Shown here in pieces: positions 34,373-46,767 of a stretch of 64,000 nucleotides of DNA (position 1 is its first letter; each line of letters starts with the position of its first letter). The stretch spans positions 1 through 64,000 of the forward strand of contig CADBRV010000092.1 in NCBI GenBank assembly GCA_902797185.1. The letters run 5' to 3'. Source of the DNA: an uncultured Lachnospiraceae bacterium. Lineage in GTDB: Bacteria > Bacillota > Clostridia > Lachnospirales > Lachnospiraceae. Position numbers and translations under genes: made by a program. The notes under the pieces are model-generated. The model ran no database searches. It saw only the letters and a list, made by a program, of their open reading frames with translations, and had not been told where the DNA came from.

Positions 34373-35661
34373 TGGAACAGATGAAAGTACTCCTGAAAAA
34401 TGTCGGGAAGATCCGTCCGGAAAGCGCGAAGGATTATATCAATGCAGGCGGTTTTGAGGCACTGCGTAAAGCCCTTTCCATGAGCTCCGATGAAATCATC
34501 CAGACCTTGAAGGATTCCGGACTCAGGGGCCGTGGCGGCGCAGGTTTCCCAACTTACCGCAAACTCCAGTTTGCCTGTTCCACCGAGAACGATACGAAAT
34601 ACGTAGTCTGTAATGCAGACGAAGGCGAGCCCGGTACCAACAAGGACCGTATCCTTTTGAGCGGCGACCCCTGCGCGATCTTCGAAGGGATGGCCATCGT
34701 AGGAAAAGCCATCGGCGCCCACATGGGATATATTTACATGCGCGGCGAGTACGTATACCTTCGGGAGATGCTCTACAAGGCATTGGAAAACTGCGAAAAG
34801 GAAGGCTGCCTTGGCAAGAACATCATGGGCAGCGGTTTTGATTTCGTGATCAAGCTCCGTATGGGCGCCGGCGCTTATGTGTGCGGCGAGGAGACGGCCA
34901 TGTTCGAGTCCATCGAAGGCAAGCGTGGCGAGCCCCGGTACCGTCCTCCATATCCGGGAGTCCATGGCCTGTTTGGCAAACCAACCGTGCTCAATAACGT
35001 GGAAACTTTAGCCAACATCGCTCCGATTTTCCGTAACGGCACCGAGTGGTACCGGACCATCGGTACAGAGGGAAGCCCGGGGACAAAGCTTTTCACGGTC
35101 ATCGGGAACGTGGAAAAACGTGGCGTTTACGAATTCCCCATGGGCATCAATTTAAAAGAACTGATTTATGACGTATGCGGCGGCATCCCGGATGGGAAAC
35201 ACCTGATGGCAGTCCAGGCCGGCGGCGCCTCCGGGCCCTTTATCAATAAAGACCAGATCGACATCCCATTGGAAATTGACTATGTGGCAGCCAGCGGCGG
35301 ACGTTTAGGCTGCGGGACCATCCTGGTCATTGATGACAGCAACTGTATCGTAGACATGGTCTGCAACAACCTGTATTTCTTCAAGGAAGAATCCTGCGGC
35401 AAGTGTACGCCGTGCCGGGAAGGCACTACCCGCCTGTACCAGCTTGCCAGGAAGATCAGCGATGGCAAGGGTACCATGAAGGATATCGACGCCATCAAGA
35501 GCCTGGGCGAAACTATGAACAACGCTTCCTTCTGCGGTCTTGGCCGTTCGGCTACCGTGCCGGTGGAAAGCGCCATCCGGAACTTCTATCCGGATTTCGA
35601 GAGGCATATCGACAAGGACTTTTGTCCGGTATGTGACCGTGAAGGGAGGATGCAGGGATGA
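34372..35661 (+). CDS. hydB: [FeFe] hydrogenase complex, NuoF-like NAD(H)/FMN subunit
   Basis: A 429-residue NuoF-type diaphorase subunit. It has the NADH-site glycines GLRGRGGAGFPTYRK, NADEGEPGTNKDR and the FMN region, GAGAYVCGEETAM, and one [4Fe-4S] ligand set SCGKCTPCREGT plus a distal cysteine in NNASFCGLG. Compared with long HydB proteins of about 600 residues it lacks the N-terminal thioredoxin-like [2Fe-2S] domain and the C-terminal two-[4Fe-4S] ferredoxin domain. The electron route is therefore simpler. GGAGGAGG lies 7 bases before the ATG; ATGA overlaps join it to both neighbours. Confidence 0.9.
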   Translation: MEQMKVLLKNVGKIRPESAKDYINAGGFEALRKALSMSSDEIIQTLKDSGLRGRGGAGFPTYRKLQFACSTENDTKYVVCNADEGEPGTNKDRILLSGDPCAIFEGMAIVGKAIGAHMGYIYMRGEYVYLREMLYKALENCEKEGCLGKNIMGSGFDFVIKLRMGAGAYVCGEETAMFESIEGKRGEPRYRPPYPGVHGLFGKPTVLNNVETLANIAPIFRNGTEWYRTIGTEGSPGTKLFTVIGNVEKRGVYEFPMGINLKELIYDVCGGIPDGKHLMAVQAGGASGPFINKDQIDIPLEIDYVAASGGRLGCGTILVIDDSNCIVDMVCNNLYFFKEESCGKCTPCREGTTRLYQLARKISDGKGTMKDIDAIKSLGETMNNASFCGLGRSATVPVESAIRNFYPDFERHIDKDFCPVCDREGRMQG

Positions 35662-37382
35662 TAAATCTGACAATTGACGGGACAGAAGTTTCCGTAGAAG
35701 AAGGGGCATCGATTCTGGATGCGGCACGCAAAGCAAATGTAAAAATCCCTACTTTGTGCTACCATCCGGACCAGACCGTAAAAGCCGTCTGCAGGATCTG
35801 TGTCGTAGAGGTGGAAGGCATGCCGGGGCTCCAGGCTTCCTGCAGCACGCCGGCTTCCGAGGGGATGGTTGTAAAAACCGCTTCTCCGAAAGTGATCCGT
35901 GCCCGCAAGGACATCATGGAACTGATCATGGCGCGCCATCCCATGGAATGCCTGGGATGCCAGCAGAATGGCAGGTGCGAGCTGCAGAATGTGGCCGCCA
36001 GCCTGAATATGAGCAAGCCTTCCCGCTATCCGCTGGATATCCGGAAAGCAACGATTGACAATACTTCCCCATCGATCGTGAGGGATATGCAGAAATGCAT
36101 CCTCTGCGGCAGGTGTGAGGAGACCTGCAGCGACGTGCAGGAAATCATGGTCATGGCCAAGGAAAACAGGGGCTATTACTCCATGATGGTGCCGCCTTAT
36201 GGCAAAAAGCTGGTGGATACGCCATGCGTCAACTGCGGGCAGTGCGTACAGGTATGTCCTACCGGTGCCATTACCGTAAAGGATGATACGGAGAAAGTTT
36301 ACAGCTTCATGGACCAGGACAAGGTCATGGTGGCTTCCATCGCTCCTTCTGTCCGGGTCAACCTGGCAGAAGCTCTGGGCGAGGAGCCTGGCACGGTCAG
36401 CACAGGCCGCATGATCACCGCGCTTCGGAAAATCGGGTTTGACAGGGTCTTTGATACCGACTTTGCGGCAGATCTTACCATCATGGAAGAAGGTTCGGAG
36501 CTTTTGGACCGCATCCAGAACGGCGGCACCCTCCCCATGTTTACCAGCTGCTGCCCGGCATGGATCAAATATGCCGAGACCTTCTATCCGGAACACCTGG
36601 ACAACCTTTCTTCCTGCAAATCCCCGATGGAGATGTTCGGCCCGCTGATCAAGACCTATTTTGCGGAGAAAGTGAAAATCGAGCCGTCCAAAATCTGCAG
36701 CGTAGCCATCATGCCCTGTACGGCAAAGAAATTCGAGTGCCAGAGGGATGAAATGAATGCCAGCGGCTACCAGGATATCGACGTGGTTTTAACGGTGCAG
36801 GAGCTGGCCAGGATGATCCAGACCGCCGGCATCGACTTTAAGAACCTGGAAGAAGGGGAGTTCGACAACCCCTTCGGCCTGGGATCCGGCGCAGGTCTTA
36901 TCTTTGGTGCCACCGGCGGCGTTATGGAAGCTGCCCTCCGTACCGTATATGAAAAAGTGACCGGGAAGGAAATGGACCCCCTGGACTTTACGCCGGTACG
37001 TGGTTTTGAAGGGATCAAGGAGGCTTCCGTTGACCTGGATGGAACGGTAGTCAAAGTGGCAGTAGCCCATGGGCTGGGCAATGCCAGGAAGATCCTGCAG
37101 GAAATAGGCAGCGGCAGGGCACAGTACCATTTCGTGGAAATCATGGCATGCCCCGGCGGCTGTATTGGCGGCGGCGGCAACGCACCCAGGACCTGGGCCA
37201 AGGTGGAAGAGAGAAAGCGCGCGATCTATGAAGAGGAAAAACGCCTTCCGGTGCGTAAATCCCATGAGAACCCTTGGATCCAGCAGATTTACAAAGAGTA
37301 CCTGGGAGCGCCGCTTGGCGAGAAATCCCACCAGCTGCTGCATACCCATTATGTGAACCGTCATGACCTGTTAGGGTCCTGA
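35658..37382 (+). CDS. hydA: [FeFe] hydrogenase catalytic subunit
   Basis: A 574-residue group A [FeFe] hydrogenase that interconverts H2 with protons and electrons. Domains in order: an N-terminal plant-type [2Fe-2S] ferredoxin (residues about 1-75); a His-Cys [4Fe-4S] motif HPMECLGCQQNGRCELQ; two [4Fe-4S] sites CILCGRCEETC and CVNCGQCVQVC; then the H-cluster domain with L1 TSCCPAW, L2 MPCTAKKFE and L3 EIMACPGGCIGGGG; and the small-subunit tail. All ligands are intact. With HydB and HydC it should form an NAD(H)-linked soluble complex. The maturation genes hydEFG are not in the window. Confidence 0.95.
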   Translation: MINLTIDGTEVSVEEGASILDAARKANVKIPTLCYHPDQTVKAVCRICVVEVEGMPGLQASCSTPASEGMVVKTASPKVIRARKDIMELIMARHPMECLGCQQNGRCELQNVAASLNMSKPSRYPLDIRKATIDNTSPSIVRDMQKCILCGRCEETCSDVQEIMVMAKENRGYYSMMVPPYGKKLVDTPCVNCGQCVQVCPTGAITVKDDTEKVYSFMDQDKVMVASIAPSVRVNLAEALGEEPGTVSTGRMITALRKIGFDRVFDTDFAADLTIMEEGSELLDRIQNGGTLPMFTSCCPAWIKYAETFYPEHLDNLSSCKSPMEMFGPLIKTYFAEKVKIEPSKICSVAIMPCTAKKFECQRDEMNASGYQDIDVVLTVQELARMIQTAGIDFKNLEEGEFDNPFGLGSGAGLIFGATGGVMEAALRTVYEKVTGKEMDPLDFTPVRGFEGIKEASVDLDGTVVKVAVAHGLGNARKILQEIGSGRAQYHFVEIMACPGGCIGGGGNAPRTWAKVEERKRAIYEEEKRLPVRKSHENPWIQQIYKEYLGAPLGEKSHQLLHTHYVNRHDLLGS

Positions 37383-42917: not shown

Positions 42918-43688
42918 ATGTATCGGATTGCAATATACGGGAAAGGCGGCATCGGCAAATCCACTGTTACTACGGCCATTTCCTGCGCTTTGTCGCAGAA
43001 AGGATACCGGGTGCTGCAGGTAGGGTGCGACCCCAAGGCAGATTCGACTTTGTACCTGCATGGCGGGGAGCGGATGACGTCAATCCTGGATATTTTAAAA
43101 AAGAAGAAAGACCTGGCGACACTGGATGACCTGGTGGAAGAAGGCTACAATGGGATCCTGTGTGCGGAATCCGGCGGGCCGGTGCCGGGGCTTGGCTGTG
43201 CCGGCCGGGGCATCGCGGCCGCATTTGAGGCGCTGGACGAGCGGGAGGCCTTTTCGATTTTAAAACCGGACATCGTCCTTTATGACGTGCTGGGAGACGT
43301 GGTCTGCGGCGGGTTTGCCATGCCCATCCGGGAAGGCTATGCGGACCAGGTTTATATTGTGACCTCGGGTGAGAACATGGCCATCTACGCGGCAGCCAAT
43401 ATTGCCACAGCGGTAGCCAATTTCCGAGAAAGAGGGTACGCCACGCTGGGCGGCGTGATCTTAAACCGCCGCAACGTGCCGGATGAAAAGGAAAAAGTGG
43501 AAACCCTCTGCCAGGACATCCAGTCAAAAATCGTGGCGGACCTGCCAAGGGATAACCATATCGCGGACGCAGAAGAGCAGAAAAAGCCGGTTATGGGCCT
43601 TTTTCCCGACTGCCCCTATGCCCAGGCAGTCAGAGGGCTGGCAGATTATATCATCCAGAACGGGGTAGACCGGGAGGACGAGGAATGA
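42918..43688 (+). CDS. NifH-like iron protein of a nitrogenase-like system
   Basis: A 256-residue homodimeric P-loop reductase related to nitrogenase Fe protein (NifH), BchL and CfbC. It has Walker A GKGGIGKST and both cysteines that bridge the dimer [4Fe-4S] cluster: GLGCAGRGI and DVLGDVVCGGFAMPIR. The arginine of CAGRG is also present. The start is the ATG at 42918, 5 bases after GGAGG. It couples ATP hydrolysis to electron delivery to the following NifD/K-like pair, with which it overlaps by 4 bases. It is shorter than NifH of N2 fixers (about 275-295). Confidence 0.9.
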   Translation: MYRIAIYGKGGIGKSTVTTAISCALSQKGYRVLQVGCDPKADSTLYLHGGERMTSILDILKKKKDLATLDDLVEEGYNGILCAESGGPVPGLGCAGRGIAAAFEALDEREAFSILKPDIVLYDVLGDVVCGGFAMPIREGYADQVYIVTSGENMAIYAAANIATAVANFRERGYATLGGVILNRRNVPDEKEKVETLCQDIQSKIVADLPRDNHIADAEEQKKPVMGLFPDCPYAQAVRGLADYIIQNGVDREDEE

Positions 43689-44986
43689 AGGAATTTCAGC
43701 TGATCAAAGATGTTCCTTATGAATATAACGCGGACAAGGGCCTGCATTATTCCAGCCCCTGCCGCGGGATGTGGAATATCGTCCATTATGGCACCCTGGT
43801 GCCGGGCGGGCACCAGATTTATGTCTGTTCTACCAGCTGCCTGAGGGGCGTGGTCCTTACGACGGCAGAGATGGGGGCGGTAGACAAGCTTTCCACCATC
43901 ACCGTGGCGGAGGACAACATCCTGGACGGGGATATGGAAGAGCAGGTGCTCCATGGCACGGAAAAGATTATCGAAAGCCTGCCCCAGCGCCCCAGGATGG
44001 TCATGATTTTCATCAGCTGCATGCACCATTTCATGGCGGTCAATTACCAGAGGGTGTACAAGCTGCTGCGCAAAGAATATCCGGATATTGATTTTGTGGA
44101 CTGCTATATGGACCCCATCATGCGCAGGAAGAGCCCGGTCATGCCCAATATCCGCAGGCAGGTCCTGCGTCCATTGCAGCCCGGGGCACAGGACATGCGC
44201 CAGGTTTCCTTTGTGGGGGACTGCTTCCCCATGGACCCGGAAACCTGCGATTTGAAAAAGCACCTGGAAGAAAACGGCATCCGCATTTTAGACCTTACGG
44301 AAATGAAGGATTATGATGAAATGAAGCAGATGGAGCATTCCTGCGTCAATTTCACCTTCCACAGCGAGGCGGAAAAAGCGGGAAAGGACCTGGAGCTGCG
44401 TCTGGGACAGAAATGGCTCCCCATGCGGGAAAGCTATGTTTATGATGAGATCGAAGAAGACATGGCAAAAGCCTGCCAGGCCCTGGGCATCCCGGCGCCG
44501 TCCAAAGAAGAAAACGAGCTGCAGCGGGACCTGACCGAACAGGCGGCAGCCCATTGCCGGGAGGTGCTGGATGGCACCCCGCTGGCAGTGGATTCCACGG
44601 CGGTGGACCGTCCCCTGGAATTTGCCCTGTACCTTTTAAACCATGGCTTTGAGGTGGAAGCGGTTCTGGTGGAAGCCATCACCGAGGATGAGGGAGTCTT
44701 CCGCGCCCTCCAGAAGAAAAAGCCGGACCTTAAGGTTTATTCTTCCTTAGGATGGAACATGCGGATCGTGGACCGCAGCTTTGACGGGAAGATCGTGGGC
44801 ATCGGGCAGAAGAGCGCTTATTTCCATGACACGCCTTATTTTGTCAATGAAGTGGAAAATGCCGGCATGTACGGTTTCAGCGGGATCCGGAAGATGTTTT
44901 CCCTGATTGAAGAAGCGGCAGGGGAGAAAAAAGATATGGAAACGCTGATCCAGCACAAAGGATGGGGGTGCAGCGCCTGTGAGTGA
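43685..44986 (+). CDS. NifD-like catalytic subunit of a nitrogenase-like system
   Basis: A 433-residue member of the nitrogenase component 1 family. Cys26 (SPCRGMW), Cys48 (VCSTSC) and Cys112 (FISCMHH) have nearly the NifD P-cluster spacing (NifD Cys62, 88, 154); Cys52 is extra. By hand alignment the FeMo-cofactor ligands are not kept: the His442 position is Tyr396 in NAGMYGFSG, and the Cys275 position falls near Phe225, with Cys220 five residues away. The C-terminus ends WGCSACE with a CxxC. It should therefore house a P-like cluster but a different active site. The substrate is unknown. Confidence 0.85.
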   Translation: MKEFQLIKDVPYEYNADKGLHYSSPCRGMWNIVHYGTLVPGGHQIYVCSTSCLRGVVLTTAEMGAVDKLSTITVAEDNILDGDMEEQVLHGTEKIIESLPQRPRMVMIFISCMHHFMAVNYQRVYKLLRKEYPDIDFVDCYMDPIMRRKSPVMPNIRRQVLRPLQPGAQDMRQVSFVGDCFPMDPETCDLKKHLEENGIRILDLTEMKDYDEMKQMEHSCVNFTFHSEAEKAGKDLELRLGQKWLPMRESYVYDEIEEDMAKACQALGIPAPSKEENELQRDLTEQAAAHCREVLDGTPLAVDSTAVDRPLEFALYLLNHGFEVEAVLVEAITEDEGVFRALQKKKPDLKVYSSLGWNMRIVDRSFDGKIVGIGQKSAYFHDTPYFVNEVENAGMYGFSGIRKMFSLIEEAAGEKKDMETLIQHKGWGCSACE

Positions 44987-46139
44987 ATTGCATGTAAACG
45001 TCTTTGCCATGACTTATACGGCAGATGTTTCCGGCGTCTGTTCTACCATGTACGAGCTGGGCGGCATGACCGTGCTGCATGACCCCAGCGGGTGCAACAG
45101 CACTTATACGACCCATGATGAGCCACGCTGGTATAACACGAAGTCTTTGATGTATATCTCGGGGCTGGATGAGATGACGGCCATCATGGGGGATGATTCG
45201 GTCCTGGTCCGGGATGTAAAAAAAGCGGCGGAAGACCTTTCTCCCCGTTTTATCACCCTCTGCGGGTCAGCTATCCCGCACCTGATCGCTTTTGATTATA
45301 AGGGGACAGCCCATCTGATTGAAAAAGCAACCGGCATCCCGGTGATTCCGGTTGCCACAGACGGACTGAAGCTTTACACTAGTGGCATTGGGCTGGCACT
45401 GCGGGAATGGATGAAACGGTTCGCGGATTTCTCCCTTCCCCATGAGAAGGACACGGTGAACCTCCTTGGCGTAACGCCCATCGATTTTTCCAGGATGGAA
45501 ATTGTGGAGGAAATGAAAAAGGCGCTGGAGGAACGCGGCTTTACGGTCAACTGCTGCGCTGCCATGGGGGATTCCTTCGAGAAGCTCCAGGAGATCTGCA
45601 AAGCATCCGTCAACCTGGTGGTTTCTTCTGCCGGGATGCAGCCGGCGAAAATGCTTTCCGCAAAGGCAGGCATCCCCTTTGTCGTAGGGACGCCCATAGG
45701 CGCCGCCTTTACCGACCAGGTGGCGCAGTGCCTTCGGGAGGCGCAGGCAGACGGGAAGAGCCGTTATGCTTATGACGCTTCCCGTTTCCAGGAAAAGGAA
45801 GAAGGAGAGGTCCTGGTGGTCGGGGAAAAGTGTGCTTCCTGCTCCCTGGCACAGGCTGTTGACGGGGCATTAGGCAGGGAGGCTGCTTTCGTGCTTTCGC
45901 CGGATGTGCGGGACGGGCTGGACGAGGATGCCCTGGTGGAAAAAATGAAAAAGGCGGATATCGTCATTGGCGACCCGCTGCTGCGTTATGGCATCCGGGA
46001 TCCCCATACAAAATTTATCGCCTTGCCTCATGAAGGGTATTCCGGCAGGATTTACCGGAAGCAGATCCCGGTATTTACGGGAGATGCCTTTGACGTTGTC
46101 ACGTTTTTGGAAGGCGGCAGGCCGGGCGGATCCGCGTAA
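44979..46139 (+). CDS. NifK-like subunit of a nitrogenase-like system
   Basis: A 386-residue component 1 family protein. Cys21 (SGVCSTMYE), Cys39 (DPSGCNSTY) and Cys95 (TLCGSAIP) match the three NifK P-cluster positions in order and spacing. With the D-like subunit this gives six bridging cysteines, more than expected for the single [4Fe-4S] of DPOR-type enzymes. The start is a GTG inside the end of the D-like gene (8-base overlap). No nifB, nifEN or nifV homologue lies nearby. It is likely a heterotetramer partner of the preceding product. Confidence 0.83.
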   Translation: MSELHVNVFAMTYTADVSGVCSTMYELGGMTVLHDPSGCNSTYTTHDEPRWYNTKSLMYISGLDEMTAIMGDDSVLVRDVKKAAEDLSPRFITLCGSAIPHLIAFDYKGTAHLIEKATGIPVIPVATDGLKLYTSGIGLALREWMKRFADFSLPHEKDTVNLLGVTPIDFSRMEIVEEMKKALEERGFTVNCCAAMGDSFEKLQEICKASVNLVVSSAGMQPAKMLSAKAGIPFVVGTPIGAAFTDQVAQCLREAQADGKSRYAYDASRFQEKEEGEVLVVGEKCASCSLAQAVDGALGREAAFVLSPDVRDGLDEDALVEKMKKADIVIGDPLLRYGIRDPHTKFIALPHEGYSGRIYRKQIPVFTGDAFDVVTFLEGGRPGGSA

Positions 46140-46329: not shown

Positions 46330-46767
46330 ATGAAAGTTTCAACGAAAGGCAGATATGCAGTGCGTGTCATGCTGGACTTGGCACTGCACAACACCGGAGA
46401 ATATATTCCATTAAAAGAGATTGCCGCAAGGCAGGGCATTACGGTAAAATATCTGGAGCAGATTATCGGGATGTTAAACAGGGCAGGGTTCCTGCAGAGC
46501 CTGCGTGGCAATAACGGCGGATACCGCCTGACCAAGGCGCCGGAAGAATACACGATCGGCAGCATCCTGCGGATCACGGAGGGCGACCTGAGGCTGACCC
46601 CCTGCATCGAGGAGAACGGCCAGGAGTGCGAGCGCAGCGAGACTTGTGCGGCTATGAGTTTCTGGACAGGGCTGGATAAAGTCATTGCAGATTACGTAGA
46701 AAGTTACACGCTGGCAGATTTAATGAAGCAGGCGGAAGATACAAACTGGGATTATTACGTAATCTGA
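46330..46767 (+). CDS. Rrf2-family transcriptional regulator
   Basis: A 145-residue winged-helix regulator. The start MKVSTKGRYAVRVMLDLAL and LRGNNGGYRLTKAPEEYTIG are typical of Rrf2 proteins (CymR/IscR). Three cysteines, PCIEENGQECERSETC (C-x7-C-x5-C), occupy the IscR cluster loop, so an Fe-S cluster is likely. The C-terminal DYYVI resembles CymR. The ATG follows a GGGAGAAAGA site. It has its own promoter with GGAATT dyads. Its position directly after the nitrogenase-like operon makes that operon a possible target, which is inference. Confidence 0.9.
   Translation: MKVSTKGRYAVRVMLDLALHNTGEYIPLKEIAARQGITVKYLEQIIGMLNRAGFLQSLRGNNGGYRLTKAPEEYTIGSILRITEGDLRLTPCIEENGQECERSETCAAMSFWTGLDKVIADYVESYTLADLMKQAEDTNWDYYVI

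Follow-up and report, generated by a model that had tools for sequence, protein, structure and literature searches.

Genes of the nflHDK operon

We describe a three-gene nitrogenase-like operon, nflHDK, in a 64,000-nucleotide stretch of DNA from an uncultured Lachnospiraceae bacterium (GenBank assembly GCA_902797185.1, contig CADBRV010000092.1, positions 1 to 64,000; the whole of this stretch is called the window). Judged from its gene neighbourhoods and its distribution among genomes, the operon most likely belongs to a second route to the H-cluster of [FeFe]-hydrogenase. It consists of three overlapping open reading frames (ORFs) on the + strand that encode a NifH-like Fe protein plus two NifD/K-like subunits, together named set B:

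42918-43688, + strand: nflH (set B), Fe-protein (NifH-like) ATP-dependent reductase, 256 aa; Fer4_NifH 288.8 bits, 5.5e-86
43685-44986, + strand: nflD (set B), NifD-type subunit, 433 aa; Oxidored_nitro 46.1 bits, 4.1e-12
44979-46139, + strand: nflK (set B), NifK-type subunit, 386 aa; Oxidored_nitro 116.2 bits, 2.2e-33

A preliminary description of the window had read these as three overlapping NifH-, NifD- and NifK-like genes, and the ORFs, Pfam matches, AlphaFold models and Foldseek searches all bear this out. The Fe-protein motifs that it reported in nflH are present as well (GKGGIGKS, GLGCAGRG and VVCGGFA). AlphaFold models of nflD and nflK (predicted local distance difference test, pLDDT, 90.1 and 89.0, respectively) matched NifDK, NifEN, BchNB and MarDK in Foldseek with probability 1.00 at 10-20% identity, the matches of the nflK model including NifEN and BchB. 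An Rfam search around the locus gave no match.

Gene neighbourhoods of set B in relatives

A scan of GTDB genomes yielded 477 encoded relatives of nflD, and we analysed the loci of the best 80. At 64 of these 80 loci hydE, hydF or TM1266 (a putative iron-only hydrogenase system regulator) lies within 10 kb of nflD, nearly always on the same strand, and the median gap to hydE is 786 bp; the identities of hydE, hydF and TM1266 at set B loci were confirmed over curated cut-offs. The radical S-adenosylmethionine (SAM) neighbour of set B is HydE, at 538.6 bits against a cut-off of 254.6. The preliminary description had recognized the set B operon but had seen no functional context for it; the neighbourhoods of relatives supply one, [FeFe]-hydrogenase H-cluster assembly, and the genome holds a further nifHDK-like operon, set A, which is linked to hypF-hypC-hypD-hypE.

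The 80 loci differ in what else they carry: set A and/or Hyp genes at 11, a FecCD-type ATP-binding cassette (ABC) transporter (permease and/or substrate-binding protein, SBP) at 56, and both at none. The first arrangement is illustrated by genome G287 (locus L143), in which TM1266, hydF, hydE, the set B D and K genes, set A HDK and hypFCDE form a single run; close relatives (loci L018, L019, L020 and L021) cluster both sets with hypFCDE, TM1266 and hydF or hydE, partially at contig ends. An example of the second is L101, with the order TM1266 - FecCD permease - ATPase - hydE - nflH - nflD - nflK - SBP - hydF. Here the permease is similar to BtuC/Fec/Fhu, and the SBP bears a weak resemblance to the heme-binding protein IsdE. 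The transporter ATPase at L101:1768-2865, like those at L095 and L118, carries an extra domain resembling TM1266, and by its domain content is a predicted fused transporter-regulator.

Set B also stands alone, as in the window, in Lachnospiraceae KH1T2, RUI249, Schwartzia and RUG028, with set A-hypFCDE elsewhere in these genomes and hydE following set A-hypFCDE in two of them. The window neighbours of set B (Mrr-like, Rrf2, pyridoxamine kinase, Fur-like and ZIP genes) are not conserved beside relatives, and an isolated metabolite reductase, as judged from those neighbours, was rejected for this reason. The Rrf2/IscR-type regulator, at 46330-46767, lies directly downstream of nflK, and no homologue of it was found beside set B at the other loci.

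Mutual exclusion of set B and HydG

The CO and CN ligands of [FeFe]-hydrogenase are generally attributed to HydG. For 293 genomes sampled across the class, each at least 90% complete, HydE and HydG were called by curated cut-offs and set B by scores above 450 bits, and the resulting tables were compared by hand. HydE was found in 202 of the 293 genomes and HydG in 190. Set B occurred in 13 of the 18 HydE genomes that lack HydG as opposed to none of the 184 with both HydE and HydG (Fisher p 8e-17 for set B versus HydG, without correction for phylogeny). The exchange of HydG for set B recurs within three genera (g1, g107 and g178). Among seven genomes of the genus studied here, the five with set A or set B are without HydG and the two without either set have it; at two HydG-bearing sister loci (L038 and L039) the operon reads TM1266-hydE-hydG-hydF. 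Of a further 50 named set-B genomes, 47 likewise have no HydG (TIGR03955), the complete genome of Clostridium carboxidivorans among them, and the FeFe hydrogenase domain PF02906 was present in 55 of 56 set-B genomes.

This distribution bears on the view taken in the preliminary description, that set B is an uncharacterised reductase. As a rival explanation, set B would be an unrelated reductase of an uncharacterised metabolite, with its linkage to hydE/hydF reflecting only shared iron or redox regulation. Such a reading could draw on group C, three operons (L022, L023 and L027) with FecCD transporters and no hyd genes, on the presence of HydG in most class-sample genomes with a group-C-level match, and on the unrelated, unconserved neighbours in the window. 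Against it stand the strict partition against HydG, repeated in three genera, and the occurrence of set B in single operons with hydE/hydF/TM1266 across many families, and we regard it as very unlikely.

A Hyp module without [NiFe] hydrogenase

The source genome assembly is 99% complete and comprises 136 contigs. Set A lies on contig C133, where its K gene is cut by the contig end; the reading frame resumes, with a 10-base overlap, at the beginning of C13, and hypF, hypC, hypD and hypE follow there, all families over curated cut-offs. At the edge of contig C9 are TM1266 and the first half of hydE. Profile searches of this genome gave no TIGR03955 match over cut-off for HydG and no PF00374 match for a [NiFe] large subunit. 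It encodes two FeFe hydrogenases, one of them inside the window:

35658-37382, + strand: hydA, NADH-dependent [FeFe] hydrogenase group A6; NF040763 855.8 bits against a cut-off of 765; PF02906 match at G000:C92:36321-37175

The H-cluster motifs of this protein (TSCCP, PCTAKK and ACPGGC) are intact, and it is a presumed client of the proposed set A/B pathway.

In the class sample, all 10 genomes with both sets carry HypD without a [NiFe] large subunit; in the three that have set B but not set A, HypD is missing and the transporter is found instead. Two whole HypD genes were always accompanied by a [NiFe] enzyme (C. carboxidivorans, C. thailandense, Schwartzia, Megamonas and two more), and in G106 HypD is split over contigs. 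HypD proteins linked to nfl genes are 59-78% identical to the HypD of this genome whereas NiFe-linked ones are 38-44% identical. Every complete nfl-linked HypE ends in PRIC, the MC of HypC is kept in 13 of 13, and EVCGTH and GPGCPVC of HypD in 13 of 13; with these catalytic motifs retained, the proteins should be capable of the cyanide and Fe(CN)2CO chemistry. That the Hyp genes are leftovers of [NiFe] maturation was rejected, as the nfl-linked Hyp proteins keep their catalytic residues and [NiFe] genomes often have a second, separate HypD. At one locus, L045 (G042:C129), a short contig carries HypD/HypF together with a gene resembling hydrogenase maturation proteases; its genome gave no [NiFe] large subunit match, probably owing to an assembly gap.

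The Hyp data also weigh on two further explanations. In one, set B replaces some other step of H-cluster synthesis (the azadithiolate bridge, or Fe or electron supply to HydE/HydF) and CO and CN come from an unrecognised HydG-like radical SAM enzyme. Some set-B genomes do encode ThiH-like proteins related to HydG, and divergent HydG-like proteins have been proposed in clostridial acetogens (PMC9431212). Most set-B genomes, however, have no TIGR03955 match beyond HydE level and hence no ThiH-like candidate, a complete and catalytically intact HypFCDE without a [NiFe] enzyme offers a source of CN, and it is HydG itself that set B excludes. We consider this explanation improbable. In the other, the complexes build some other CO/CN iron cofactor, used by a further enzyme, and HydE and HydF have been recruited to that role; HypFCDE and HydE/HydF are indeed both Fe-CO/CN machinery, and no client protein is fixed in the set A/B operons. 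Yet an FeFe hydrogenase is nearly always present in set-B genomes, the A6 hydrogenase in the window keeps all H-cluster motifs, no other Fe-CO/CN enzyme was found and [NiFe] enzymes are mostly absent, making this the least probable of the explanations weighed here.

Placement among nitrogenase-like families

Set B falls outside the families whose curated cut-offs were applied. nflH scored 312 against nifH (cut-off 394.35), 302.3 against CfbC (402), 183 against bchL (345) and 163 against BchX (331); nflK scored 24 against nifD (653.55) and 62 against BchB (490) and was also under the NifE cut-off; nflD had no match among NCBIfam profiles. Membership of Nif, dark-operative protochlorophyllide oxidoreductase (DPOR), chlorophyllide oxidoreductase (COR) or CfbC was therefore rejected, all curated cut-offs (NifH/D/K/E, BchL/N/B/X and CfbC) having been missed. 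MarD was a distant profile match only (E 8e-4). A tree of the kind that the preliminary description had proposed was built from D and K sequences and took in Nif, DPOR and other Nfl proteins (Mar, Isr, COR and CfbD sequences were not included); set A, set B and the transporter-linked group C form one clade in it, supported at 100/100 in the D and K halves and separate from NifDKEN, BchNB and the other Nfl sequences. On both counts, the missed cut-offs and the separate clade, the preliminary description was right to see an uncharacterised nitrogenase-like complex without the iron-molybdenum cofactor (FeMo-cofactor) set-up. A genome-wide PF00148 search for a NifEN scaffold listed the set A and set B proteins only, and no nifB-like partner was found beside set B (at the loci; there was no genome-wide NifB test). 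Operons encoding HDK together with FecCD-type iron-complex transporters and without hyd genes were seen at L022, L023, L027 (Treponema saccharophilum pTS1) and L128 (a Sporomusa termitida plasmid), the first three of which, group C, belong to the same clade as sets A and B.

Residue conservation was counted over 60 D and 59 K relatives of set B. Cys48, Cys52 and Cys112 of nflD are invariant, as are Cys39, His34, Asp35, His46 and Asp47 of nflK. The six P-cluster-like cysteines noted in the preliminary description all exist in the window's proteins but are not conserved as a set in relatives: D-Cys26 is found in 6/60, K-Cys21 in 47/59 and K-Cys95 in 18/59. Because three of the six ligands vary, a P-cluster was rejected as a family trait, and the eight-iron P-like cluster proposed earlier is unsupported as a family property. 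D-Tyr396 is Tyr in only 40 of the 60 relatives and so is not a conserved active-site feature.

The complete set of six P-cluster-like cysteines occurs only in the window's subclade of set B, which spans Selenomonadaceae and Lachnospiraceae-type genomes, including L046 (Schwartzia, 66% identity) and L060 (Eubacterium cellulosolvens); this span suggests horizontal transfer. D subunits also have a C-terminal Cys pair (window 44969-44986; Cys429 in 51/60 and Cys432 in 54/60) in a tail modelled at low confidence, perhaps a metal or partner site.

Proposed pathway

The set A and set B genes, we think it likely, replace HydG in the assembly of the H-cluster. A HydG-independent pathway is indicated because set B is linked to hydE/hydF/TM1266 and almost never occurs with hydG in genomes that retain FeFe hydrogenases, and because the Hyp proteins are catalytically intact where there is no [NiFe] enzyme. 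Physiology points the same way: growth of C. luticellarii on H2/CO2 is reported in a passage of PMC9871530 that cites Petrognani 2020, and profile searches of its genome (L067/G078) found both sets, HypFCDE, FeFe hydrogenases and a radical SAM match at HydE level, but neither HydG nor a [NiFe] enzyme. Clostridial acetogens with HydE and HydF but without HydG, and with HypCDEF but without HypAB, have been reported and left unexplained (PMC9431212); according to that paper's tables, a [NiFe] large subunit is present in these acetogens too. The set B system would explain their missing HydG, at least in C. carboxidivorans, in which it was seen directly.

In the pathway that we propose, the Hyp proteins would act as they do in [NiFe] maturation: HypF/HypE would make cyanide from carbamoyl phosphate and HypC/HypD would build an Fe(CN)2(CO)-type unit. 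Set A, whose genes are always found next to hypF-hypC-hypD-hypE, would supply or remodel this unit, and set B, with ATP-driven electrons from its Fe protein, would reduce or remodel the Hyp-made unit into a HydG-type precursor that HydE and HydF could turn into the [2Fe] subcluster. In the transporter variant an imported compound may feed the set B step in place of set A and Hyp. The reaction might be Fe reduction, CN/CO exchange or the formation of CO from CO2; the last two are plausible because both cyanide and CO2, the latter to CO, are reduced by known nitrogenases. A fuller version of this scheme, in which the two nitrogenase-like complexes and HypFCDE constitute a second, HydG-free H-cluster biosynthesis with ATP-driven reductases converting Hyp-made Fe(CN)2CO, and in which bacteria that have the FecCD importer in place of set A and Hyp take up a ready-made Fe-CO/CN compound from outside as a cross-fed organometallic cofactor precursor, is put forward tentatively and strikes us as rather doubtful in its entirety.

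Several observations weigh against replacement of HydG by the set A/B genes. HydG is also present in three set-B genomes (C. drakei, C. thailandense and RUG235), and five HydE genomes without HydG are also without set B (G052, G166, G292, G349 and G393), so that other solutions or assembly gaps exist. These five reflect either assembly gaps or yet another route; G166, G292 and G393 each have a HydG-bearing congener in the class sample, which makes assembly gaps or recent loss possible. HypCD is known to make Fe(CN)2CO, whereas the synthon used by HydE is Fe(CO)2(CN), and the scheme has to assume a step that converts one into the other. Nor does it account for the source of CN in the transporter variant. 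In the genome studied here hydE is cut by a contig end, hydF was not located among the 136 contigs, and set B is apart from the other maturation genes. At locus L041 (G052:C7), in one of the five genomes with neither HydG nor set B, HydE is found with HydF and TM1266.

If the proposal is correct, HydG-less anaerobes that produce or use hydrogen in the gut, the rumen and among acetogens, including the clostridial acetogens of PMC9431212, have a different route to the H-cluster, one that joins three biosynthetic machineries: the Hyp proteins of [NiFe] maturation, nitrogenase-like reductases and HydE/HydF. A clade of nitrogenase-like enzymes would gain a testable function and Hyp genes a possible use in genomes without [NiFe] enzymes. 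The set A/B route would be relevant to the turnover of H2 in the rumen, the gut and syngas fermentation and to the production of hydrogenases in other hosts, and it may help with the question of where Hyp-type assembly obtains its CO under anaerobic conditions. The literature searched, with most subscription papers and preprints outside the search, held no description of HydG-free or nitrogenase-like H-cluster maturation, and transposon data for C. autoethanogenum made no statement on these genes.

Comparison with known systems

HydE and HydF are common to the known pathway, and the literature searched does not link the machinery that, on genomic evidence, appears to replace the HydG step with that step. 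Compared with HydEFG maturation, hydE, hydF and TM1266 are kept in the same operons and the likely clients are FeFe hydrogenases whose H-cluster motifs are intact, but hydG is gone, its place being taken by nitrogenase-like HDK together with either HypFCDE or a FecCD importer. Shared with [NiFe] maturation by HypABCDEF are complete HypC, HypD, HypE and HypF with catalytic Cys motifs and, presumably, Fe(CN)2CO assembly; here, in contrast, the genome usually has no [NiFe] large subunit, and the Hyp module is joined by synteny to set A.

The likeness to NifEN/NifDK, DPOR (BchNB) and MarDK lies in the fold, the Fe-protein partner, GKGGIGKST and the Fe-protein cluster Cys. Set B differs from NifEN/NifDK and BchNB in its own 100/100 clade, its ligand set, the lack of an adjoining nifB-like partner and the cut-offs missed. 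NifEN is nevertheless a precedent for a nitrogenase-like complex working in metallocofactor assembly. As for CfbCD, set B-type H subunits score for CfbC about as high as for NifH (302-305 bits), under the CfbC cut-off of 402, and the D and K subunits of set B are heteromeric whereas CfbD is a homodimer.

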